Shown here: positions 5,101 to 22,360 of the stretch, piece by piece
How positions within the stretch are numbered: position 1 is the stretch's first letter
Layout: each line of letters begins with the position of its first letter
Virus record (IMG/VR): IMGVR_UViG_3300012178_000024
Span: 1 to 22,513 of that record
Reading direction: 5' to 3' (one strand)
Length of the DNA stretch: 22,513 nt
Origin: a virus
Translations under genes and position numbers: made by a program
The notes under the pieces: model-generated
What the model saw: only the letters and a program-made list of their open reading frames with translations
What the model was told of the DNA's origin: nothing
Database searches by the model: none

Positions 5101-6586
5101 ATATGCTAAGAAGGGCGCTAGCAAGATCTTTGATAAACTTGATAGGGCCTCTAAGAACATCTTTAAGACCCTCAAAGAACTTAGCAAGTCCTTCGCCATT
5201 CTTAACTGCTAGATCAAGAGCAACTAGGAAGTCGCCGATGTTAGCTGTTGCATCAAGAAATCCCCCGGAGCCTTCTGAGACCATGCCGAAGAGATCAAAG
5301 AGGAAAACAGTAACGGCCTTAACAACCGACCAACCAATACTGAAGACTGCGAAGACCCCAGCAAAAGTACGTTTAAGCTTCTCTGCGCTATCTCCTCCCA
5401 TTTTGATTGTTTCAGTGAAGTCTTCAACTACTTGAACCATCTTCCGGAATTCCATAATGCTAGAACTCGGGAAGATCTGACTAAATGCTTCTCGGATCGG
5501 TTTTATAATAGATGCAAAAGCAGCACCAAGATTTTTAACAGTACGAACCATCGGTGCAATTACAAGAATCAACCTACTGAAATCGAAACTGTCGATAATC
5601 GAGATTAGACCCTTGGTCGAAGCCCCACTGAAGTCAATCATCATGTCGATGACTGGTCCAAGAGCCTTCGCGATCGCATCAATAGCTGGTGTTATCGAGT
5701 TGAATAGATCTCTCTGATCTTTCAAGAACGGCGTGAAGAAAGATGCACCGATACGGGAGAGAGCTGCTTTCATGTTAGCCAGCGAACCAGTGTAAGTCTC
5801 GTTTGCCTTAGTAGCGTTCTCTCCAAAGGCATCATCCATAGCATCGGAGAACATCTTAAAGCTAATCTCACCGGCAGTAACCATCTCTCGAACTGCCGCT
5901 TCACTGACGCCCATAGAATCTGCCAGAGTTGCAGCAGCGTTAAGACCACGAGAAGACATCCGCAGTAGATCGGAGCCCATAAGTCGGCCGTTACCAGAAA
6001 CCTTTGTGAAGATGTCCGCAGTATCGGTGTATGTACTATTAGTCATAGCAGCAACACCAGCAATAGCTCTCAGAGAACTCGTCATCTCCTCGCCGGCTCG
6101 CATACCACTAGCACCGAACATACCTGCGGCTTTAGCTGCCTCGTCGAGTCCGAAAGCTGTACCAGTTACAGCAGCTAGGGCACTCGCCATTGTGTCTTCG
6201 ACGTCCATTTCGAGACCACGAAACTGGAACTTCGCTTGCTCAATATTCATGGCTCGTTTCTTACCCCCGGTAGCCAAGGGGTCCCAAACCATACCACTAA
6301 GTCGTTGTACAAAATCGAGTGCGCCACGAGTAAGGCTCTGAATAACAGTGAAACCAATTGCACCTAGGGCAGAAAACTTGCTAGAGATGTTCTCAACACC
6401 AGCAGCCATACCGTCAAGATTGACATCTTTTCCTGCTGCATCAATATCTTGCAGGCCTTTGGTGGCTCCTTCCAGCTTGAGTCCATTCTTAAGGGTCTCT
6501 AGCGAAGCTAGGGTATCTTGAATACCGTTCTCAAACTGTTTGTTGTCGAACTCCATCTCAACTACGCGACGGTCAATACTACTCAT
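2138..6586 (-). CDS. Tape measure protein
   Basis: The longest gene in the window (1482 residues from MSSIDRRVV). Tape measures set tail length and are threaded through the tail tube. The N-terminus (VVEMEFDNKQFENGI...LETL) is the usual tape-measure opening. A helical middle is followed by very hydrophobic Ala/Leu/Ile-rich segments at about residues 650-1090, with several possible membrane-spanning stretches. Nine 22-residue repeats follow, and then an SSSPSKVFERIG motif near residue 1315 that is common near tape-measure C-termini. I chose the ATG at 6586 because it forms an ATGA overlap with the gp10-like stop and follows AAGGTGGTGA. The upstream ATG at 6607 has no binding site. Two separate internal repeat arrays are listed on their own. 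Confidence 0.95.
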   Translation of the reverse strand: MSSIDRRVVEMEFDNKQFENGIQDTLASLETLKNGLKLEGATKGLQDIDAAGKDVNLDGMAAGVENISSKFSALGAIGFTVIQSLTRGALDFVQRLSGMVWDPLATGGKKRAMNIEQAKFQFRGLEMDVEDTMASALAAVTGTAFGLDEAAKAAGMFGASGMRAGEEMTSSLRAIAGVAAMTNSTYTDTADIFTKVSGNGRLMGSDLLRMSSRGLNAAATLADSMGVSEAAVREMVTAGEISFKMFSDAMDDAFGENATKANETYTGSLANMKAALSRIGASFFTPFLKDQRDLFNSITPAIDAIAKALGPVIDMMIDFSGASTKGLISIIDSFDFSRLILVIAPMVRTVKNLGAAFASIIKPIREAFSQIFPSSSIMEFRKMVQVVEDFTETIKMGGDSAEKLKRTFAGVFAVFSIGWSVVKAVTVFLFDLFGMVSEGSGGFLDATANIGDFLVALDLAVKNGEGLAKFFEGLKDVLRGPIKFIKDLASALLSIFDFEAPSADNLTASFEPLGRLGEILISVWDRVLASLNRIWDVFQPLAEKLQSFFEPITNAITKAFTSLNFDQILDTLNTGLLGGIFLMFQRMAANTSNTVGSIAFNLTEPFRKMTFTLRSMQNTLRAATLMQLAIAIGILSASVLMLSKVDAAGLTKALTAMSVMMGQLVLSLKGLTMLGGAKGIVSIGAGLVLFAIAIRILASAVKALAELSWEELAKGLTGVTVLIGALVLAVRGMSSQTAGMIKAGAGLLLLAFGIKVLVSAVTDLSGLGWEEMAKGLVGVGALLGALTLFTKFSKANKGAIGQGAALVLLAVGIKILASAVKDFADLSWEEVGKGLASVTAILFAFAIFSRAVGNPAKLMAAGVSLVLVSVAMKILASAMSDIADLSWEEIDKGLSSMAGALILIVAALNLMPPSTLASAAALVVVSVALGLIANVMQQMGGMSWEEIAKGLVTLAGSLVIIAVAMMAMTAALPGAAATLLVAAALATLVPVLIAFGSMSLGMIAKGLGVMAGVFIILGVAGLALAAVVPVLLALGIAVGILGIGLLAAGAGVFLFATGITALAAAGAAGVAAIIAIAVGLFKLLPEFARQIGNALVAFAEVIAAAGPAMLDAMSAVLGAIIGAIEENVPRIIDLFTVLLDKLLELLVEFVPKIATAALDIMIAILEAMVEKVPIIVAEIANLIVAILKELTEAVPKMVKAAAALLVAFLTELADNVQDVIDAGAAVIIALIEGISDSMVDIVDAGFEAIVSFIEGITDSIDEHMPELLSAGKDMAFAIADGLTGGIAGKVGEVARAARDMANNAIDTVKGWFESSSPSKVFERIGASGGQGLAIGFTNSAPLVNKAAGGVGKDAISTMKKSISGLSDLLAMDTDLNPTITPVLDLSDFHKDAAQINSSLSGKQISVDVAYSEAKYASTRYQANEAARYATTTAGDISSPAELTFNQYNNSPKALSSAEIYRQTKNQLSVTKGALTPNVAQDA
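2744..3337 (-). repeat. Nine gapless 22-residue helical repeats in the tape measure
   Basis: Counting from MSSID, residues 1084-1281 divide without gaps into nine 22-residue units. They start at LPEFA, GPAML, VPRII, VPKIA, VPIIV, VPKMV, VQDVI, MVDIV and IDEHM. Six of the nine have proline at the second position, and most end in an acidic or polar turn after A(I/F)LE(E/A/G)-like residues. Twenty-two is two hendecads, which suits a regular helical or super-helical rod. The DNA is 594 bases (9 x 66) with clear codon divergence between units. Confidence 0.8.
3566..4642 (-). repeat. Tape-measure hydrophobic repeats, about 56-60 residues each, six to seven units
   Basis: Within the tape measure, a WEE(L/M/V/I)xKGL signature recurs at residues (from MSSID) about 709, 769, 828, 887 and 944. 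Each is followed by a hydrophobic stretch and then by a variant of GIKILASAVxDLS. A degenerate unit precedes them (AAGLTKALTAM) and another follows (LGMIAKGLGVM). Spacing is 60, 59, 59, 57 and 56 residues. Each unit alternates an amphipathic WEExxKGL helix with a strongly hydrophobic helix, which would suit membrane-inserting hairpins. This is diverged protein-level repetition, not a recent DNA tandem repeat. Confidence 0.8.
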
Positions 6587-6960
6587 GCGGATGTCACCAC
6601 CTTCCATACTTCATCGGCAATTCTGTCAAATATAGGTTGGATAGCTGGATTGATGTAGTCTTGTCCTTGAACATAACCACCCGTTCCGGTACCGTAGCCG
6701 TATTGCAACATAATGGCTACAGGAAAACCGCTCTCAACGTCACTGTTAGTCCAGACAATAGTAACCGTACTATTGGATTGCTGAATATAGTAATCCCAGG
6801 AGCTTGCTGCAAGCCCGGAGTCCATTGGTGTAGCAGCAGCTAACGCATCTACTCCTTGTTGGGCGTAGAGCTCAGCAATCTTACGAATATCGAGCTTTTT
6901 CATTGAGTCTAAGAAAGACTCCAGCTTGTCGAAGGAGCCTCTATGATTAAATGAAACCAT
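6583..6960 (-). CDS. HK97 gp10-like head-tail/tail completion protein
   Basis: A 125-residue protein with the features of the HK97 gp10 family: an N-terminal helix (FDKLESFLDSMKKL), the conserved ATPMDSGLAASSWDYYI segment (Asp-Ser-Gly followed by Ser-Trp), a strand-rich middle (TIVWTNSDV), and the LQYGYGTGTGGYVQGQDYI motif followed by NPAIQP. Family members take part in joining head and tail or in finishing the tail. The start follows AAGGAG with a five-base spacer, and the TGA overlaps the tape-measure ATG. It lies directly before the tape measure instead of among the connector genes after the capsid, a placement I also associate with some Gram-positive phages. Confidence 0.8.
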   Translation of the reverse strand: MVSFNHRGSFDKLESFLDSMKKLDIRKIAELYAQQGVDALAAATPMDSGLAASSWDYYIQQSNSTVTIVWTNSDVESGFPVAIMLQYGYGTGTGGYVQGQDYINPAIQPIFDRIADEVWKVVTSA

Positions 6961-6990
6961 GCTGGCTCCTTGCGAAAAGATTAAACATGA

Positions 6991-7170: not shown

Positions 7171-8667
7171 TTATGAAGCAAAGCCAATGAACCAAAATAT
7201 GCGGCCCTCATTGGAGCTTCCTGGGGGGCGTGTGAGGGTGACACGCAAAGCGAACGACGTGCCCGAATGCGCCAACATAGTAGTGCTACCAGGAACGACC
7301 ACCTCCCATGTTGTACCACCATCAAGAGTAGCCTCATACGTTGCTGTCACGTTCGTGTCGAGTGTCTCCTCAGAAAGTAGATAAACATCAGTTGCAGTAG
7401 AAGGGAGGACAACCGTGTTGAGCACAAGAGTCCCGGTGTCTGTAGTCTCATCAACTGACGTCCACACCGTTCCGCCGTCGCCGACTGCGACGAATAGCGA
7501 CCCGGACCAGGTGACGCCGCGCATGGAATCGGTGCCTGGGGTTGTGCGGGATGTCCAGGTGATCCCGTCAGGTGACGTCAACGCCGTGCCGTCGTAGCCG
7601 ACTGCGACGAATAGTGACCCGGACCAGGTAACGGCGTACATAAAAGCATAGACTGGCGTTGTGCGGGATGTCCAGTTGATCCCGTCAGGTGACGTCCACA
7701 CGGCGCCACCACCAACTGCGACGAATAGTGACCCGGACCAGGCGACGCCGTTCATGTGATCAGTGTCTGGGGTTGTGCGGGATGTCCAGGTGATCCCATC
7801 AACTGACGTCCAGATGGCCCCACTATAGCCGACTGCGACGAATAGCGACCCGGACCAGGTGACGCCGTTCATGTTAGTAGTGCCTGGGGTAGTGCGGGAT
7901 GTCCAGTTGATCCCATCAACTGACGTCCACACCGTTCCGCCGTCGCCGACTGCGACGAATAGCGACCCGGACCAGGTGACGCCGTTCATGTTAGTAGTGC
8001 CTGGGGTAGTGCGGGATGTCCAGGTGATCCCATCAACTGACGTCCACACCGTTCCGCCGTCGCCGACTGCGACGGATAGCGACCCGGACCAGGCGACGCC
8101 GTCCATGTTAGTAGTGCCTGGGGTAGTGCGGGATGTCCAGGTGATCCCATCAACTGACGTCCACACTGTGCCGCCACCACCAACTGCGACGAATAGCGAC
8201 CCGGACCAGGTGACGCCGTTCATCTGATCAGTGTCTGGGGTTGTGCGGGATGTCCAGGCATCTATGTTCCCCGTAAATATCCCTACAGACCCGCCCAGCA
8301 GCCGAGCGCTCCGCATAACCCTCAGCCCGCCATCGACAGACACCTCGTCCTGACCAATCAGAAACCCGTCGCCCTGCCAGTTGGTGAACCCCTCAGCCGT
8401 ATTCAACACGGACGCTTCCAACTCCCACAATCGCAAATTCTGCTCGGCATCAATATAAAACGGAGCATCAAGGCCATCAACTCCAGGATCTCCTTGTGGA
8501 CCCACATAGTTGGGCAACTGACTCCATGGTCTTACACCATCGCCGACTCTCAGTAGATGAGAACCGTTTAGTTCTAGTGAGACACCAATCTCTCCGGCAG
8601 AAAGAACTTCATCATCAGCAGCCCATTCAGCTGGCGTACCACGCCTTTGTAGCATACGAGTAGCCAT
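7171..8667 (-). CDS. Receptor-binding-type virion protein: Mtd-like N-domain, collagen-like hinge and seven-blade repeat region
   Basis: A 498-residue protein. Residues 1-50 (QRRGTPAEWA...GEIGV...LRVGDG...W) match the small N-terminal domain found in the Bordetella phage Mtd protein and many phage fibre proteins. A short collagen-like hinge, GPQGDPGVDG, follows at about 56-66. Residues 138 to about 408 contain seven near-identical WTSRTTP...WSGSLFVAVG...WTS(V/P)DGI units, so a seven-bladed beta-propeller is likely. The last 90 residues form a strand-rich terminal domain. The TAA of the upstream tail-tube paralogue overlaps its ATG. The gene is much richer in GC than its neighbours, suggesting recent acquisition or recombination. 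A role in host recognition is inferred; an attached surface decoration of the tail is also possible. Confidence 0.75.
   Translation of the reverse strand: MATRMLQRRGTPAEWAADDEVLSAGEIGVSLELNGSHLLRVGDGVRPWSQLPNYVGPQGDPGVDGLDAPFYIDAEQNLRLWELEASVLNTAEGFTNWQGDGFLIGQDEVSVDGGLRVMRSARLLGGSVGIFTGNIDAWTSRTTPDTDQMNGVTWSGSLFVAVGGGGTVWTSVDGITWTSRTTPGTTNMDGVAWSGSLSVAVGDGGTVWTSVDGITWTSRTTPGTTNMNGVTWSGSLFVAVGDGGTVWTSVDGINWTSRTTPGTTNMNGVTWSGSLFVAVGYSGAIWTSVDGITWTSRTTPDTDHMNGVAWSGSLFVAVGGGAVWTSPDGINWTSRTTPVYAFMYAVTWSGSLFVAVGYDGTALTSPDGITWTSRTTPGTDSMRGVTWSGSLFVAVGDGGTVWTSVDETTDTGTLVLNTVVLPSTATDVYLLSEETLDTNVTATYEATLDGGTTWEVVVPGSTTMLAHSGTSFALRVTLTRPPGSSNEGRIFWFIGFAS
7444..8256 (-). repeat. Seven tandem 117-bp (39-residue) repeats, one unit of 114 bp
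   Basis: Units begin with the codons for WTSRTTP. On the plus strand their right edges lie at 8256, 8139, 8022, 7905, 7788, 7674 and 7557. All spacings are 117 bases except one of 114. The segments 7860-7976 and 7977-8093 differ at only two positions by hand comparison. One unit (8006-8122) contains 75 G or C bases out of 117. Frame is preserved throughout, so the array is coding and probably maintained by unequal recombination. Confidence 0.95.
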
Positions 8668-9416
8668 TATAGACCACCTCCATCAATAGTTGAAGTTTGC
8701 GGCTCGGGTACGACACCGCTGTCAATTGTAATATAATAGTCCTCGACCAGAGTTCCTGCGTCAAGTACCTCGGAATCGTATTCGTTAAATATGAATAGAA
8801 GCTCAGAGGCAGGCGGCAAACGAGAAGCTGATGCATCCGATCCATAAAGAATATCTTCTACCAGCTCTATTAGAATTGACGGAACATCTCGTGAATCAAT
8901 CACAAAGTGCGCAGTAGGCTTATAACTCGTGAATGTCGGCGGCTTTGTGACAATATCCCAGCTAAAGTTGAATGGGTCGACTGAATCACTGATAGTATTG
9001 TTAGGACGGTCCGTAGGTTCTGCCATAGCATTATACACAAGATGGATCTTATACGCATGATCTACCCCGTCGACATCGTTGCCAACCTTTGTCCTGTAAG
9101 CAAGCCCAAAAGATTTCTTTGGTTGTTGCGTTGCAAATAGGCCGTTTTTGACAAGACTAACTCCCTCACATTGAGCAAACTCTTCAGGATAGGTGTAAGC
9201 TTCAATAGTTGCTTCGAACTCTTCACTGGCAACGTGATTGAGGTACTTGATACCGTCGATATAATACGGTGTTATGTCTCCACCAGAGGGAGATTCGGAG
9301 ACAGCAACCAGACCATTCCATGGAACACCATCAATGCCCTCGATGAAAAGAACACCTTGGTCAACACCAGCTTCAAACGTTCGTTCCCCAACAGCATTCC
9401 ACATAAGTCGGGTCAT
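8667..9416 (-). CDS. Second tail-tube-like protein, paralogue of the gene at 10000-10866
   Basis: A 249-residue protein starting MTRLMWNAVGERTFEAGVD. It aligns along its length with the N-terminal 220 residues of the gene at 10000-10866. Shared landmarks are GVDx[26 protein letters not shown](Y/F)TYP(D/E)EFAQ, the YRT(K/Q)VGNDV motif, HLVY(N/G)AMA and LYG...RLP(L/P). It lacks the Ig-like C-terminal domain and ends in a short unrelated tail (STIDGGGL). The ATG at 9416 follows AAGGAGG with a four-base spacer. The chaperone gene lies between the two copies. It may be a minor or alternative tube subunit, or a specialised ring near one end of the tail. Confidence 0.85.
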   Translation of the reverse strand: MTRLMWNAVGERTFEAGVDQGVLFIEGIDGVPWNGLVAVSESPSGGDITPYYIDGIKYLNHVASEEFEATIEAYTYPEEFAQCEGVSLVKNGLFATQQPKKSFGLAYRTKVGNDVDGVDHAYKIHLVYNAMAEPTDRPNNTISDSVDPFNFSWDIVTKPPTFTSYKPTAHFVIDSRDVPSILIELVEDILYGSDASASRLPPASELLFIFNEYDSEVLDAGTLVEDYYITIDSGVVPEPQTSTIDGGGL

Positions 9417-9427
9417 GGTTCCTCCTT

Positions 9428-9970
9428 TCACCCTGTAGTGTTGAGTTTAGCTTTTCTTTCAGCGTTAAGAGCTCGTTGTCTTTCCGCTGCTTCTCGCTTA
9501 CCCATCTTATTCTTAGGAGCATTTTTAACGTTACAAACCTGAACAAGAGTCAATAGACGACTAAGATGCCAATGTTGGCACTCAAATGGGATACCTAGTG
9601 CAATCATCCAGTAGTAAATTAGTTCTGCAGTGATAATCTCACTACTTGGAGATTGCTTTGGTTTATCACTAAACCAGGTAGCAGTCATCTTAGCGTTGAT
9701 GTACTGATTAACTGCTACAAGGTTATCGTTAGAGAGCTTGCCATACACTTTTGAAGGGACGTCGGGGGTTATAATCATAGCCTTGATGTACCACAACGTT
9801 TCTTCAGAAGTCTTCTCAGTTGCGTTGAGAAACGGTTTCTCCCAAAACGACTCCCATTTTGATAGGGAAACCAGAGAGTGCTCAAGGTCCAAGACATAAA
9901 CCTCCGAAGCTACAAATTCATCCTTCGCTTCATCGAAAGCTTCTTCCATCGGGACAATTATTGTAAGCAC
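9428..9970 (-). CDS. Tail assembly chaperone-like protein, single uninterrupted frame
   Basis: A 180-residue protein in the place of the tail chaperones (after the tail tube, before the tape measure). Landmarks are [34 protein letters not shown] and [20 protein letters not shown] followed by [12 protein letters not shown]. The tail end is lysine- and arginine-rich. I recognise this as a conserved family in Gram-positive siphophages, usually unnamed or called a tail assembly chaperone. The start is GTG at 9970 because GAAGGAGG lies seven bases upstream; an ATG start is absent nearby. The classical chaperone pair is made by a -1 ribosomal frameshift. Here one frame covers everything, so no frameshift is needed. 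Confidence 0.65.
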
Positions 9971-9999: not shown

Positions 10000-10866
10000 C
10001 TACGCGATGTAGTAGAACGTCCAGTCGGTGTCCGAAATTGCCGAGAACACGTATCCCGGTTCCGGAGCAGCCGTAACAACTGTGTCCTCGGTAATTGGGT
10101 AAGGTCCTGCCGGAACCACTTCGCCGTCGATTGAGTAGACAACACCCACAACGGACGGAATAGTAATGTCGTCCGTGGTAGCATCATAGGTCGGGTTCTC
10201 AGTCGTAACTTCAGTCACCGTACCTGCGAACAAGCTCAGAATCTCGGCAGGAAGCGGAAGACGAGGATCGCCACCGGCTGTCCCATAGAGCATGTCCTCA
10301 AGAGCCGCCAAATTAGTTGCGTCGACCTTAGACGAATCGATCACCATCGATGCTGTCGGCTTGAAACCAGGCACATCGACCGGAGTCGTGCTAAGCTCCC
10401 ACGAGAACGTCAGAGCCTCAGGAGACTCATTGATAGTTCCGTAAGCCTTCTCCGTCGGAGCCGCCATGGCACCGTAGACAAGATGCAACTTGTAACCAAA
10501 GTCCGTGCCTGTGACATCGTTACCAACTTGGGTACGATATGAAAGACCGAACGTGCCACGAACCTGCTGTCCGATTAGAACACCAGCCTGAGGTTCAGCC
10601 GTGCCATCGAACTGAGCGAACTCATCTGGATAGGTAAATGCCTCAATCGTGGCGCCAAACTGCTCGGCGGACACAAGGTTGAGGTACTTAATATTGTCAG
10701 CATACTGAGGAGTTACCTCGGCACCGCTGGGAGACTCACTAACAGCCACCAAGCCGTTCCAAGCATAGCCCGCATCATATACACCAACGGTTGGAATGTA
10801 CAGAACACCATGGTCGACGCCGGTTTCATAGAACCGCTCGCCAACCTGATCCCACTTAAGACGCAT
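10000..10866 (-). CDS. Major tail tube protein with C-terminal Ig-like domain
   Basis: A 288-residue protein starting at the ATG at 10866 ([18 protein letters not shown]), preceded by AAAGGA; a longer upstream frame has no binding site. The N-terminal 220 residues are the tube domain shared with the gene at 8667-9416 and resemble major tail proteins of Gram-positive siphophages. Residues 222-288 form a separate strand-rich domain (NPTYD...ITIP...[11 protein letters not shown]...[13 protein letters not shown]...WTF) that looks like a bacterial Ig-like surface domain. A related domain ends the major capsid protein of this phage. Such C-terminal additions on tail-tube proteins usually project outward and may help weak binding to cell surfaces. 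It lies directly after the tail terminator gene. Confidence 0.85.
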
Positions 10867-10879
10867 GGGTTTTTCCTTT

Positions 10880-11185
10880 CTAAAAGAATAGGCTGAAGAC
10901 ATCATGGTTGAGGTTATTTGCTGTGAAATGCCTATTAAATATACACATAGGCAATGCGGCAATTTTATCAGGAATTTCGCTGTCGGGATCCTGACCGATA
11001 AAAGTTACCTGATATCGTTTAGTATAACGGTATGGAACGTTGCCAGCGAACCGAGTACGTGCGTTGTCACGTGTATAAACAATACACGGATACTGCATTT
11101 GCACATTGGCAGGAGGTTGAAAATATACATTGGTAGTGCCTAGAACATCCTCAAGGAGAGTTTGAAGTTCAAGCCTTCGGGCCAT
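10880..11185 (-). CDS. Tail terminator-like protein
   Basis: A 101-residue protein (from MARRLELQTLLEDVLG). The pattern LExVLG...VYFQPPANVQMQYPCIVYTRD, followed by YxxTFIGQDPDSEI, is the usual one for the small tail terminator/minor capsid proteins that cap the tail tube and join it to the head-closure ring. The ATG at 11185 is preferred because GGGAGG sits eight bases upstream; the in-frame GTG at 11194 would be inside that site. The start overlaps the end of the upstream gene by 17 bases. Its place between head-closure and tail-tube genes fits the role. Confidence 0.75.
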   Translation of the reverse strand: MARRLELQTLLEDVLGTTNVYFQPPANVQMQYPCIVYTRDNARTRFAGNVPYRYTKRYQVTFIGQDPDSEIPDKIAALPMCIFNRHFTANNLNHDVFSLFF

Positions 11186-14760: not shown

Positions 14761-15396
14761 TCACTTCTTCTCTTTAGCAGCCTTGTTGATTACTTTGGCG
14801 GATTCTTTCATCACATCCTTGTAGGTCTTTCCTTTCATGAACTCTGCTTCCAAAGTATTAGACCTACGGTTAGCAATTCGATCTGAATTTGCTTTAGCAG
14901 CACCCACAGCGCCAATGGTTGCCACGCCACCACTAAGAGGATTTCCTGTAGCCAAAGTAGTCAAAATCGCTATTGCGCCAATCTCTCCTGCCGTCATTTG
15001 AGCTGCAATTGCGCGGTGATGACTGGTGTCAAAGTCTGACTCAGCTTTATCAAATGCTTTTTTTGCTTTTGCTTTTTCAACAGATGTTTTAGCAGAATCA
15101 AGGCGATCCTCTGCATCCATCAATTTTTGATTAGATTTTCTAACTTGTTCTCGGGCATTCTTAACATCTTTATTAGACCCCATATAATTCCATGTGGATT
15201 TCTTGCCAACACCTCTATTTGGGGTTCCGCCAACATTTCGAACTGCTGCACGAGCAGATCTCGAGTTGTTAGGACGACCCGAAGCTTTATCTAGAGCCGC
15301 TTGGTCCCTACGAACACCCCACTTCATGCCCATTACGCCATAGTGCTCGAGAGCCTCTTCAAGAGAGGGCTTTTTGTCATCATTCGTAATCCTCAT
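14761..15396 (-). CDS. HYGVMGMKWGVRR-motif protein, coiled coil plus hydrophobic segment
   Basis: A 211-residue basic protein whose ATG overlaps the large-terminase TGA (ATGA). Residues 13-30 carry LEEALEHYGVMGMKWGVRR, a short motif common at the N-termini of phage head-region proteins and also present twice in the gene at 17157-18074. Residues 76-125 are Lys/Asp/Glu/Ala-rich and likely coiled coil. Residues 136-168 (GEIGAIAILTTLATGNPLSG onward) are hydrophobic and Gly/Ala-rich, then a basic C-terminus. It sits between terminase and portal, so a role in head assembly or a product ejected with DNA is plausible. The hydrophobic part could also suit membrane association. Function unknown. Confidence 0.75.
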   Translation of the reverse strand: MRITNDDKKPSLEEALEHYGVMGMKWGVRRDQAALDKASGRPNNSRSARAAVRNVGGTPNRGVGKKSTWNYMGSNKDVKNAREQVRKSNQKLMDAEDRLDSAKTSVEKAKAKKAFDKAESDFDTSHHRAIAAQMTAGEIGAIAILTTLATGNPLSGGVATIGAVGAAKANSDRIANRRSNTLEAEFMKGKTYKDVMKESAKVINKAAKEKK

Positions 15397-17156: not shown

Positions 17157-18074
17157 CTACTTCTTCAAATTCTTTTTAAGTTCTTTCATCATTGGACTAT
17201 TAGAAAGGTTATAAACCTCTTGAGCTGTCTTACCCAAACCAAGAAGTTTATTGGCCTTCTCCTGACCCTTAGCCATCTTCGAACTATTATCTCCGGTAGA
17301 CAATCTAGAATATTGCTGCTCCAAGTTCATACGCGTGGTAAGATCTTTAAGCTCCTGATTAGACAATGCCTTCGCGCCACCGCTCTTTGCCTTCTTACGC
17401 GCTGCTTCCGCTTTTTCAGAATCCTCGGAGCGATCTTGGCTTGAGCTCTTCTTAGTCTTGCGCGCGCGAGCGATCTGTTTATCACTTCTTCGGACACCCC
17501 ACTTCATACCAAGAATGCCATAGTGAGCAAGAATATCGTCAAGATCCTCGTGTTGAAGAGTTTTTACACCCTTGATCTTCTTGACCTTACCATTAGGCCA
17601 CCATTCAAGATCTATAACAATTACATCATCAGCATGTTTTGCCTTATCGACATCCACGATAGTGAGTTGCGGCATCATTCCTTCTTCGTACGATGTACTG
17701 AACACTGCCTTCTTAGTACCAGACTCGTTTGGGGCAATTTCTGCTGACACATCCTTTAGAATCTTGTTATACGTGGACTCCACGTCCTTAAGGTACTTCT
17801 TTCCAATCGGTGTTTTGAAATCCATAAGATCTTCGCCAACATCATTATACTCATACTTATCGTTGATTCGCTGGAGTTCGCCATTAGGACCATTAAGTTT
17901 ATCAGCCATCTTGTTATTTACATCTACAAATGTTTTAGTAGAACTTGCTTTCTTCTCCCAACGCTTATCGGCGCGAGCGATCTGTTTATCACTTCTTCGG
18001 ACACCCCACTTCATACCCATGATACCATAGTGAGCAAGTACATCATCGAGTGTTTCGTGTGTTTGCAGATCCAT
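17157..18074 (-). CDS. Protein with two HYGxxGMKWGVRR motifs (internal duplication)
   Basis: A 305-residue, Lys-rich protein starting after AAGGAGGAAGT. Residues 9-35 and 178-204 are the same 27-residue segment with only two substitutions (DDVLAHYGIMGMKWGVRR and DDILAHYGILGMKWGVRR, both then SDKQIARA). They are separated by exactly 169 residues. The region between (about 45-170) has a mixed alpha/beta look (VFSTSYEEGM...TIVDVDKAKHADDVIVIDLE). The region after the second copy is helical and charged. The layout suggests two formerly separate genes, each starting with this motif, fused end to end, or a duplicated N-terminus. The motif is widespread in phage head-region proteins of unknown function. 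No enzyme residues can be named. Confidence 0.8.
   Translation of the reverse strand: MDLQTHETLDDVLAHYGIMGMKWGVRRSDKQIARADKRWEKKASSTKTFVDVNNKMADKLNGPNGELQRINDKYEYNDVGEDLMDFKTPIGKKYLKDVESTYNKILKDVSAEIAPNESGTKKAVFSTSYEEGMMPQLTIVDVDKAKHADDVIVIDLEWWPNGKVKKIKGVKTLQHEDLDDILAHYGILGMKWGVRRSDKQIARARKTKKSSSQDRSEDSEKAEAARKKAKSGGAKALSNQELKDLTTRMNLEQQYSRLSTGDNSSKMAKGQEKANKLLGLGKTAQEVYNLSNSPMMKELKKNLKK
17464..18017 (-). repeat. Pair of exact 47-base direct repeats (17464-17510 and 17971-18017)
   Basis: The two DNA copies encoding GMKWGVRRSDKQIARA are identical over 47 bases and 507 bases apart, a whole number of codons. Flanking bases continue to match with few changes. Identity at silent positions points to recent copying or to gene conversion between the two. 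Confidence 0.9.
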
Positions 18075-19491: not shown

Positions 19492-19908
19492 TTATACCCT
19501 TTCCCATAGCTCGGTGTCCCCAGGTCTACGCTCAACAAGCGCGCGAGGGATTTGGTTTTCATCGCCATAGTGAATGGCGTTGTGTGTTCTATGCGTTGTA
19601 GTAATCAAGTACTCAGGATCAAGAATTCTTGGATCTCCATGAACAATTGAGTCGGGATCCATTGGATTCATATGATGGACAAGAAGTTCACTATGAATTT
19701 CGTAACCATCAATACCAAGATCGCAACCATTGTCTCGAAATATAACATAATCTCTAAGCTGGCGCCATTCCAGAGATTTGTAGAACCGTTGATTAACATG
19801 GCGATCGAATCCAAAACTCGTTCTTCCGATTGAACCTTGAAGACGTAAATATCGGTAGCGTTCTTCAAAGGTGTCAAGACGTCTCAAGTTAGAATATCGT
19901 CTAATCAT
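19492..19908 (-). CDS. HNH endonuclease
   Basis: A 138-residue HNH nuclease. The motif is LLVHHMNPMDP around residues 76-84 (metal-binding His pair H78/H79), then DPEYLITTTHRTHNAIHYG at 98-115 with N110 and H113. A possible start of a zinc knuckle (RDNGCDLG near 58-65) has one Cys only, so zinc ribbons are not complete. Residues 1-50 are basic and helical, likely DNA binding. HNH proteins near terminase genes act in packaging in some phages (HK97 gp74), but others are homing endonucleases. Here it lies away from terminase, between tail-like genes and endolysin. ATGA overlap with the preceding gene suggests an ordinary operon member. Confidence 0.88.
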   Translation of the reverse strand: MIRRYSNLRRLDTFEERYRYLRLQGSIGRTSFGFDRHVNQRFYKSLEWRQLRDYVIFRDNGCDLGIDGYEIHSELLVHHMNPMDPDSIVHGDPRILDPEYLITTTHRTHNAIHYGDENQIPRALVERRPGDTELWERV

Positions 19909-20225
19909 CAGGCGGTCACAGTATTCACGAAGGCCACCTGTAGTGGCTCATCAAAGACGCTTAAAGGCTCGCCACCGCTGACTCGTTTGAGATCCATGTA
20001 ACCAACTGAGTTTGTAATTGCTTCAGTTATGTCATTATCTAGGGTCAAAAGAATATCGCCATCTGTTCCATCAGTTACATAGGTCACAACCCAAGTCGCA
20101 ATAAGAGTTTCTGTTCTACTTTTACCAGCACGGATTTCACTTGTAATGGTATCTTGTGAAACATCAATACCTAGAGCTACTGGTAAAATCACGGTTCTTC
20201 CCTTGTATACTGTGACTTGTTTCAT
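19908..20225 (-). CDS. Small strand-rich virion protein, BppU N-domain-like
   Basis: A 105-residue protein (MKQVTVYKGRTVILPVALGIDVSQDTITSEIRAGKS...). The pattern of an N-terminal VxKGRTxxLPV, then TSEIR, then a YMDLKRVSGGE-like turn near the end resembles the N-terminal domains of baseplate upper proteins (BppU-like) that anchor fibres on the tail tip. The resemblance is in layout only; I did not see an exact motif. AAGGAGCTCTGA precedes the ATG. It sits among fibre-like genes, supporting a structural role. Confidence 0.55.
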   Translation of the reverse strand: MKQVTVYKGRTVILPVALGIDVSQDTITSEIRAGKSRTETLIATWVVTYVTDGTDGDILLTLDNDITEAITNSVGYMDLKRVSGGEPLSVFDEPLQVAFVNTVTA

Positions 20226-20239
20226 TCAGAGCTCCTTAC

Positions 20240-20824
20240 TTATAGTTGCGAACCATCAAATAATCTTAGCGAAGTAGCCAGGCCGTTTGGCATACGAACT
20301 CGAGCTTTGTTTCCATTAGCTAGTTTAACAAAAGAACCATCCCAAGATGCCGACGCCGTGTAGGTGCCGGTCAGTTGGAAGTAGTCGACCTCAATTCGAA
20401 TATTATCAGGGCCTTTGTTTTTGCTGATAGTCTGACGCAATTCTACAGATGCACCATCCCATGTAGCTTTTGTAGCCGCCGTGTTAACATAAGAAAATAC
20501 GGTCGGACCGACCGTCGTATCTGTAGCAGAGTGTGTATTACTCAAAGTCTTAGCAGTAACCCATCCACCAACAGAATCAGACGCAGCCAAAACTGTCGCA
20601 CCGTTCATCACCCGAATATCAAGCCCAATCGCATCGTCGGAAGTAACGACGTTAGTCCGCCACTGTAATTCCCAGGAGACGGTGTCCATCGATACAAAAT
20701 CCGCAGGAGTATCACCAATAGTTCTAGTCAGAACCTCAGGACCAAGATCTGTTGTGAATAGTAAGCGGGAAGTGTCATCTACATTTAAAGGAGTGGCTCC
20801 GACGATAACTGGAAGAGTTGTCAT
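20240..20824 (-). CDS. Hypothetical tail-fibre/virion protein, jelly-roll-like
   Basis: A 194-residue, strand-rich protein. It reads like a tail-fibre or lectin-like module: FVSMDTVSWELQWRT, IGLDIRVMNGATVLAASDSVGGW, VELRQTISKNKGPDNIRIEVDYFQLTGTY. The alternating hydrophobic pattern with few charged residues, rich in Thr, Ser and Gly, suits a beta-sandwich binding domain. The end (FVKLANGNKARVRMPNGLATSLRLFDGSQL) could be a small terminal strand. Coupled to the preceding gene through TAATG. Possibly carbohydrate binding, by analogy only. Confidence 0.6.
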   Translation of the reverse strand: MTTLPVIVGATPLNVDDTSRLLFTTDLGPEVLTRTIGDTPADFVSMDTVSWELQWRTNVVTSDDAIGLDIRVMNGATVLAASDSVGGWVTAKTLSNTHSATDTTVGPTVFSYVNTAATKATWDGASVELRQTISKNKGPDNIRIEVDYFQLTGTYTASASWDGSFVKLANGNKARVRMPNGLATSLRLFDGSQL

Positions 20825-21057
20825 TATACAGCCTCGTCTTCTCGGATTATAAGATCCGGTGTAACTGCGTTAGTTGCGTTACCTGTTGCATCGCATAGCC
20901 AAATAACACCTGCCCAGCCAAGTGGTCTTGCTAAAGAAGCATTTGTCCGAGCATCAACATAGGTCCATGATGCCGCTTTCAGTGCAATAACCGCATCACT
21001 GACTGCTGTGTTAAATGAGTTGAGTTGTGCTTCTGTTGTGAAGTCAGTATCGGCCAT
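20824..21057 (-). CDS. Short fibre-like protein, shares N-terminal motif with next upstream gene
   Basis: A 77-residue protein. The ATG at 21057 gives MADTDFTTEAQLNSFNTAV, parallel to MAATDFVTETQLDSLTTNI in the gene at 21062-21637, and so it is preferred to an upstream TTG. No clear Shine-Dalgarno is visible; it begins four bases after the previous stop, so reinitiation is likely. The rest (YVDARTNASLARPLGW...IWLCDATGNATNAVTPDLI) looks like a small beta domain. It may be a short fibre or tail-tip subunit. Confidence 0.65.
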   Translation of the reverse strand: MADTDFTTEAQLNSFNTAVSDAVIALKAASWTYVDARTNASLARPLGWAGVIWLCDATGNATNAVTPDLIIREDEAV

Positions 21058-21061
21058 AATA

Positions 21062-21637
21062 TCAGGCAATCGCAGTGTTGAAGTTCGATGCAAAATCTAC
21101 TGAAGAAGCAACAATGTTCAGATTTGCCTTACCCTGAACCTGTTGTGGAGCAGTGAATGCTTGTGCAGCATCTACGCGCACGCGCAAAGATAGTGCAGTA
21201 GTCATAGTAGTTGAAAAGCTAGCGTCATCACCAAGTGCTGCAGCAAGCTCATTAAGAGTGTCAAGAGCTGCAGGAGCAGCAGCGACAAGCGCATTGACCT
21301 CAGCTGCCGTATAGTCGGTAATCTTCTGACTAGACCAAGCATCCACAGTGTTTGTAACAGAATCGTTAATTGCTGTTCCACCACCTGCTGCGGCGTCAGC
21401 TACAACACGTACTTCTGCTAGAGCAGCTTCAACATCTGTTGCTGTGTAGTCACCAGCAACATCTAGAAAAGAAACTGCTGAAGCAGCATGTGCTGCTGCA
21501 GTATCAGCAATATGAGCGTCGACTACAGTGTCGTCAGTCTTATTATTAAGTGCTGTCGTGTTGTTCTTAACTGCTGTAGCAATGTTAGTTGTTAGAGAAT
21601 CTAGTTGTGTCTCGGTAACAAAGTCTGTAGCTGCCAT
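21062..21637 (-). CDS. Tail fibre-like protein with coiled, AH/ALxEL-type repeats
   Basis: A 191-residue Ala/Thr-rich protein. Its motifs are common in phage tail fibres: HIADTAAAHAASAVSFLDVAG followed by TATDVEAALAEVR (about 50-80), then SSQKITDYTAAEV...PAALDTLNELAAALGDDASF (about 105-155), and finally RVDAAQAFTAPQQVQGKANL. These modules form trimeric rod-like segments in other phages. Almost no Cys or aromatic residues. Host-recognition or adaptor role inferred. The start ATG at 21637 lies two bases from the preceding stop. Confidence 0.75.
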   Translation of the reverse strand: MAATDFVTETQLDSLTTNIATAVKNNTTALNNKTDDTVVDAHIADTAAAHAASAVSFLDVAGDYTATDVEAALAEVRVVADAAAGGGTAINDSVTNTVDAWSSQKITDYTAAEVNALVAAAPAALDTLNELAAALGDDASFSTTMTTALSLRVRVDAAQAFTAPQQVQGKANLNIVASSVDFASNFNTAIA

Positions 21638-21638
21638 G

Positions 21639-21977
21639 TTAACTTAGTCCATTCTGGAAGAGCGCCGCATAGTCGCGTCCGCTAGTCGCGTTAGTATGTA
21701 CTTCTTCTGCTTGTGCGTGCGTTGCGATCTTCGTATCAACTTCTTCGCTAGTTCCAACACTTAGCCAAACGGTACCTGTGTCTGCCTTGCCAATCACTTG
21801 ACCGGTAACACCTCCGTCAGGAATACCGCTTACCCCCGGAGGACCTTGGGGGCCAGTATTAATAACACTTACAAAATTATTAGGTTTTGCGCTTATTGTT
21901 TGTGGATCAATTGATCTAACACTAATAGAACCTAAAGAATCTACAACAATCTTTTGGGATGTGTAATTATCAACCAT
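21639..21977 (-). CDS. Short tail-fibre-type protein with collagen-like segment
   Basis: A 112-residue protein. Residues 42-51 are GPQGPPGVSG, a short collagen-like stretch, followed by DGGVTGQVIGKADTGTVWLS, a pattern seen after collagen repeats in phage fibres. The last 35 residues (DTKIATHAQAEEVHTNATSG...) look like a coiled coil. The N-terminus (VDNYTSQKIVVDSLGSISVR) may be the anchor. GGGAGATG lies before the ATG. Probably a trimeric fibre or adaptor subunit. Confidence 0.7.
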   Translation of the reverse strand: MVDNYTSQKIVVDSLGSISVRSIDPQTISAKPNNFVSVINTGPQGPPGVSGIPDGGVTGQVIGKADTGTVWLSVGTSEEVDTKIATHAQAEEVHTNATSGRDYAALFQNGLS

Positions 21978-21980
21978 TGC

Positions 21981-22346
21981 TCATCTCCCTTCTTCATCAT
22001 TGGTATCCTCTAGTTTATCAAGAGCCTCATGTCCAGCGTAAGCGCGCATAGCATCGATCGCAGCTCCGTAAAGTTCTTCAACACGCTGCGCTGAAGCCAT
22101 GGCTTCACGCTTCGCAGCCATAAGAGACACTTCTTGCGCCAAACGCTCTTGCTCCAGCTTCTCTCGAGAAGAACCAAGCTTCAGATAGTGTGTAATCACC
22201 TGAGCCGAAGCATTTCCTTCGCCAAGTTGCTTCTCAGCAAGGTCAACAGCCTTAGATATAAGCTGATTTTCTCTAGCCTCAGGAGTTGTAGCCGGAGGCC
22301 GCTTACTTGTCATAGCTTTAGGTACGTTTGTTTGTTTGCTAGCCAT
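21981..22346 (-). CDS. Helical phage protein, possible small terminase-like subunit
   Basis: The first gene of the leftward block, 121 residues (start ATG 22346, AGGAG nine bases upstream; an in-frame TTG at 22355 is rejected). It has a basic, proline-rich N-terminus (MASKQTNVPKAMTSKRPPAT) and then helices ENQLISKAVDLAEKQLGEGNASAQVITHYLKLGSS (given as landmarks, about 26-60), a coiled-coil-like SREKLEQERLAQEV..., and EELYGAAIDAMRAYAGHE. This helical pattern recurs in Gram-positive phages, often unnamed and sometimes called small terminase. It lies far from terL here, so the role is uncertain. Alternative: a DNA-binding regulator. Confidence 0.6.
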   Translation of the reverse strand: MASKQTNVPKAMTSKRPPATTPEARENQLISKAVDLAEKQLGEGNASAQVITHYLKLGSSREKLEQERLAQEVSLMAAKREAMASAQRVEELYGAAIDAMRAYAGHEALDKLEDTNDEEGR

Positions 22347-22360
22347 AGTTTTCAACTCCT

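Follow-up and report, generated by a model that had tools for sequence, protein, structure and literature searches.

We identified a tandem array of seven near-identical blades in a putative fibre or adhesin gene of a siphophage. The array is predicted to close into a seven-bladed propeller that varies on one face, and related phage propellers copy short tracts from one blade to another. The window, the whole stretch of DNA that was analysed, is a 22.5-kb virus record (22,513 nucleotides) and is probably a fragment. Its minus strand encodes terminase, portal, a protease-capsid fusion, two major tail proteins, tape measure and distal tail genes, and relatives of the phage infect Streptomyces, Arthrobacter, Gordonia and Microbacterium. 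The best explanation of these data, and as a whole a fairly probable one, is that the array gene encodes a virion-attached adhesin whose seven-bladed ring varies on one face by blade conversion.

Seven near-identical blades in a putative adhesin gene

A reading of the sequence alone had claimed seven near-identical 117-bp repeats at 7444-8256, encoding WTSRTTP units of 39 residues with a single unit of 38. The repeats are present on the minus strand from 8256 down to 7441 (Table 1), in units of 39, 39, 39, 39, 38, 39 and 39 residues (six of 117 bp and one of 114 bp). Tandem Repeats Finder reports the array at 7449-8258 with a 117-bp unit, 6.9 copies and a score of 1123, and finds no second array in the window. 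The self-match at lag 117 is 0.78, as compared to a maximum of 0.31 among 500 shuffles. Pairwise blade identity averages 78% with a minimum of 64%, which places the array among the highly repetitive propellers, defined by a median blade identity above 60%. The G+C content of the array is 61% and that of the window 47%. A recount gives exactly two base differences between the stretches 7860-7976 and 7977-8093, as had been noted, and the view that the array was recently copied or is being homogenised is supported. The longest exact repeat in the array is 79 bp, so short-read assembly should resolve the number of units, which we judged from the assembled sequence rather than from reads.

Table 1. 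Positions of the array gene, its domains and units, and the borders of the variable slot within the window.
Feature	Position	Strand	Remarks
Second major tail protein (phrog_2645); bounds the slot on the upstream side	8667..9431	-	
Putative fibre/adhesin gene containing the array, 498 aa	7171..8667	-	
Mtd_N-like N-terminal domain, presumed virion attachment	8536..8646	-	weak Pfam match
Collagen-like stretch GPQGDPGVDG	8473..8502	-	residues 56-65; read directly
Seven-unit blade array, predicted closed seven-bladed propeller	7441..8256	-	residues 138-409
Unit 1	8140..8256	-	D-A loop DTDQ
Unit 2	8023..8139	-	D-A loop GTTN
Unit 3	7906..8022	-	D-A loop GTTN
Unit 4	7789..7905	-	like unit 3; 9/10 differences in codons 27-31 (B-C loop)
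Unit 5, 38 aa	7675..7788	-	D-A loop DTDH
Unit 6, most divergent	7558..7674	-	D-A loop VYAF
Unit 7, last strand C	7441..7557	-	D-A loop GTDS
C-terminal beta-rich domain	7174..7440	-	residues 410-498; low model confidence
Variable slot, replaced in nearest relative L131	6971..8618		DNA homology boundaries
Conserved gene of 125 aa directly preceding the tape measure gene; bounds the slot on the downstream side	6583..6960	-	

The array is predicted to fold as a closed seven-bladed propeller

Structure prediction had been proposed for residues 130-410 as a check on a seven-bladed propeller. AlphaFold2, run with an alignment that took in 15 related arrays, gives a closed ring of seven blades in which residues 141-408 form seven times four strands at a pLDDT of about 90-98, with 222 residues at 90 or above. 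Unit 1 begins with strand D and unit 7 finishes with strand C, a circularly permuted blade set; since the array runs from strand D to strand C, the first and last strands would close the modelled ring by velcro pairing.

The top five Foldseek ranks are chains of YCF48, followed by 2ymu, a highly repetitive propeller, and by 7big, the designed seven-bladed WRAP-T (TM-score by target 0.83). The best match among viral models is a phage DUF6242 protein (TM-score by target 0.88). Superposition of the predicted model on closed seven-bladed rings covers 263-276 residues at Z 30-32, with VIA-align matches to 2z2o (Z 32.5, rmsd 2.3, 276 residues), 2ymu (Z 32.0) and 7big (Z 31.6, rmsd 2.3, 271 residues). 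An AlphaFold2 control from the single sequence gave a low-confidence, beta-solenoid-like model and no propeller, with zero residues at a pLDDT of at least 90 and all listed Foldseek probabilities at or below 0.15. The fold assignment thus rests on the alignment-based model together with independent arguments.

One such argument is the number of units. We found exactly seven in 23 of 30 complete homogeneous arrays from other loci, counted with a blade profile that was seeded partly from the window and favours no count, and in the L190 family of phage propellers the arrays that are complete and distinct also have seven blades. Seven recurs across unit lengths of 39 to 44.5 aa, which argues for a propeller independently of the model. 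Given the alignment-based model, the fold comparison and the conserved count, the repeats very probably fold as a closed seven-bladed propeller, as the sequence-only reading had suggested.

The Asp-box motif S-x-D-x-G-x-T-W (PMC2716378) is not found at the C-D turn of the units, which reads S-[VP]-D-G-I-[TN]-W and is one residue shorter from D to G. The model is structurally alike to members of the Asp-box group, as YCF48 leads the Foldseek ranking and PSII-like propellers are placed in this group in PMC9218822. The protein looks like a phage Asp-box-type version of the highly repetitive propellers.

Variation is concentrated in two loops on the same face

Variation had been ascribed to one loop per blade, directly after WTSRTTP. 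Mapped on the model, this loop (D-A) does vary; it is not the sole variable loop, and B-C varies on the same face. The varying positions of the unit are 8-11 and 13 (D-A) and 27-31 (B-C), and the four-stranded meander of the model places both loops on one face. On the opposite face, the A-B and C-D loops are also exposed, yet A-B is fixed and C-D almost so. In the window array, the D-A and B-C loops account for most of the non-synonymous differences (Fisher p 1e-4), and pN/pS is 0.92 in the loops as compared to 0.28 outside. The pS is also higher in the loops (0.38 vs 0.14), so block replacement accounts for the pattern without amino-acid selection. Between units 3 and 4, nearly all differences lie within one block of 15 nt (simulated p 5e-6), a pattern indicative of block replacement; no donor for this block was seen in the window.

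Other arrays vary at matching positions (rho 0.60), with peaks at 11, 13, 27 and 28. At these positions pN is 0.55 in the pooled data as compared to 0.11 outside the loops, and it is higher in 20 of 20 arrays. The pooled pN/pS at the hot positions is about 1.0, with synonymous sites saturated; in some low-divergence arrays (e.g. L206) pN is about twofold above pS. These values do no more than suggest positive selection at D-A and B-C positions.

Related phage propellers show blade-to-blade conversion

Recombination of blades had been put forward as a mechanism for changing binding specificity. Conversion tracts, and with them recombination of blades, are found in related phage proteins; in the window array itself, incompatible sites are not clustered by the PHI test on the seven units (p 0.91 with 18 informative sites). 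Because no orthologue of the window array was found, we compared blades in the L190 family of propellers, which share about 42% identity with that of the window.

The alleles L430 and L433 are 95.5% identical over 1620 bp, and of the 59 differences between them, 17 lie within 46 nt of blade 2 (binomial p 1e-14). Here L430 is identical to blade 4 of the same gene over 71 nt, and L433 to blade 1 of the same gene over 41 nt. Outside the tract, which carries the D-A loop, blade 2 is identical between the alleles. In each allele, blade 2 has taken over a stretch from a different blade of the same gene, which accounts for the difference. Likewise, blade 3 of L408 (the L190 gene) closely copies blade 4 of the same gene, with 2 differences in the first 75 nt, as compared to 16 differences between blade 3 of L413 and blade 4 of L408. 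Between L190 and L254, blades 6-7 are 97.5-100% identical and the upstream blades 1-5 are 66-85% identical, a shift that places a breakpoint inside the array. The exact L430 allele occurs on another contig (L431) and the L254 allele in three further contigs, so these two alleles are not single assembly accidents; L433 is known from one contig. A scan with L262 returned only relatives that are identical, 55% identical or short and partial, none of them suited to comparing blades.

Blade conversion, seen in these relatives, may well act in the window's phage too. We infer that ligand binding, and a change of specificity by blade conversion, may apply to this phage.

The array gene occupies a variable slot among the tail genes

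The array gene starts on the stop of the second major tail protein gene, with one base shared. Compared with the nearest relative, L131, DNA homology is lost at 8618 and returns at 6971. We delimited the corresponding slot in relatives as the space from the last detected major tail protein to the 125-aa gene before the tape measure gene; in more distant relatives this space also includes further conserved tail genes. Other proteins occupy the slot in about 95 relatives with both borders visible (mostly IMG/VR contigs), and the window's blade type is absent from the slot in all of them. Among ten slot proteins scanned are Mtd_N fibres, a Collar/Gp10_C protein and a GDPD enzyme (L352), and the L131 slot protein is a separate PQQ/WD40-type propeller. 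The slot reads as an exchangeable position with a putative role in host contact.

The array protein scores below the Mtd_N (PF18454) cutoff (18.8 vs 26.3 bits), and the match is strong in the slot proteins of L131, L329 and L156 (42-63 bits). Based on gene position and domain resemblance, the array gene product is likely to be a virion adhesin. Its C-terminal domain (residues 410-498) had zero matches among the phage records searched, and we found no close relative of the array fibre itself in the viral collection.

A contig from another assembly, L130, is 99.85% identical to the window over 5394 bp and ends at window position 8723, 56 bp before the fibre gene. This single case may be an assembly break at a gene that varies in the population. 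The two phrog_2645 major tail proteins of the window (8667-9431 and 10000-10962) are paralogous and lie in the same operon; relatives hold two or three.

Weighing the explanations

In the explanation that we favour, the Mtd_N-like N-terminus and a short collagen-like linker would carry a propeller of the Asp-box/YCF48 type, and the repeated D-A and B-C loops of its seven blades would make up one variable face that binds a host-surface ligand. All blades would have been amplified from a single blade. Short-tract copying within the gene and exchange with other phages would keep the blades alike and re-assort their loops, and the requirement of ring closure would hold the count at seven. If instead the propeller were a recently amplified structural or decorating tail domain, the likeness of the blades would reflect recency and the loop variation neutral drift on a tolerant surface. 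Such an origin agrees with PMC9218822, in which recent amplification of a single blade has often given rise to highly repetitive propellers, in viruses as in all other lineages. It agrees also with the tolerance of surface loops to change, with a pN/pS at the hot positions that is about 1 and not clearly above it when pooled, and with the negative PHI test in the window. We nevertheless consider a purely structural domain unlikely, as related phages show conversion tracts and recombination breakpoints, the A-B and C-D loops of the opposite face are exposed yet much more conserved, and pN rises to about twice pS at the hot positions of some low-divergence arrays such as L206.

The propeller could also be an enzyme that cuts a host surface glycan, sialidase-like or a lyase. 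The top VIA match is virginiamycin B lyase, many glycoside hydrolases are found among the Asp-box propellers (PMC2716378), and L352 carries its GDPD enzyme domain in the same slot. We regard this as very unlikely, because near-identical blades leave the ring without a unique catalytic site, the invariant residues, which are structural Asp-box-like and aromatic positions, are each repeated seven times, and the propeller has no sequence match to an enzyme family. A beta-solenoid or fibrous shaft, which the resemblance of the single-sequence model to beta-helices would favour, is hardly credible: that model has no residue at the pLDDT level reached by 222 residues of the alignment-based one, and a solenoid leaves the recurrence of seven across unit lengths unaccounted for.

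Relation to known propeller systems

The highly repetitive Asp-Box propellers of Pereira and Lupas (2022, PMC9218822) resemble the array in being of a related class, here with seven blades that are about 78% alike. The location in a phage tail slot, the blade-to-blade conversion documented between related phages and the variability of one face set the array apart from the propellers covered by the available text of that paper. YCF48, the photosystem II assembly factor (5ojr, 2xbg), is a propeller with the best Foldseek E-value, but it is 17-18% identical to the array protein and has diverged blades and a cellular function. DUF6242 (PF19755) matches by sequence, at 29.1 bits just past its cutoff of 29 bits, a marginal score whose best matched stretch spans only about two blades. 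Propellers are also part of phage adsorption structures, among them phi11 Gp45 with five blades, PhiKZ gp131C with seven and PRD1 P2; repetitive blades are not reported for these in the available text of PMC4901313. We found no sequence relation of the array protein to any of the three.

The fungal WD40 proteins HET-D and HET-E are similar in their pattern of variation. Their blades evolve in concert and exchange, with positive selection at repeat positions 7 and 9 (D-A) and 25 and 27 (B-C) on one face (Paoletti et al. 2007, PMC1805685). The same two elements, the D-A loop and the B-C turn, vary on one face here, at positions 11, 13, 27 and 28. The number of repeats is highly variable in the fungal proteins, whereas it is mostly seven in the phage arrays, and positive selection was shown there, whereas here pN is raised. 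Repetitive propellers, the concerted evolution of HET-E blades and phage adsorption propellers are thus already known; our search of open papers found neither their combination in phage tail proteins nor a report of blade conversion in phage propellers.

Perhaps phage adhesins in general are diversified by the conversion of loop-sized tracts between the near-identical blades of one gene, a possibility that we raise tentatively. If so, the ring would present some 28 variable positions on a single face, and copying of loops between blades could yield new faces at a constant blade number. Such a system would be a phage counterpart of fungal HET-E, parallel to a self-recognition system that uses the equivalent two loops, and an alternative to diversity-generating retroelements, of which neither a reverse transcriptase nor a template repeat came to notice in the window, probably a fragment. 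Many environmental phages could then reshape their host-binding surface by loop swaps on a fixed fold, and the diversification of adhesins would be testable with ordinary long-read population data.

Further arrays and fibre-like genes

Arrays of the blade class occur in four ORFs of one viral locus (L274), three of them with seven units. A seven-unit array in another locus (L235:2197-4491) lies within a protein matching the minor-tail families phrog_110 and phrog_538; the protein at 161-1306 of the window belongs to the same family as this minor-tail protein and has no array. Two ORFs of L326, a contig binned as Nitrospirota, have eight detected units each, about 75% alike, and the same bin also contains the viral contig L004/L303.

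A second group of fibre-like genes is located at 19908-22355 of the window, upstream of the terminase gene, and one of them has a collagen-like GPQGPPG stretch. One ORF contains two copies of a motif like LAHYGIMGMKWGVRRS, and a second ORF has a single copy of similar form (17157-18074 and 14761-15396); the two ORFs with LAHYGIMGMKWGVRRS-like motifs flank the terminase gene on either side.
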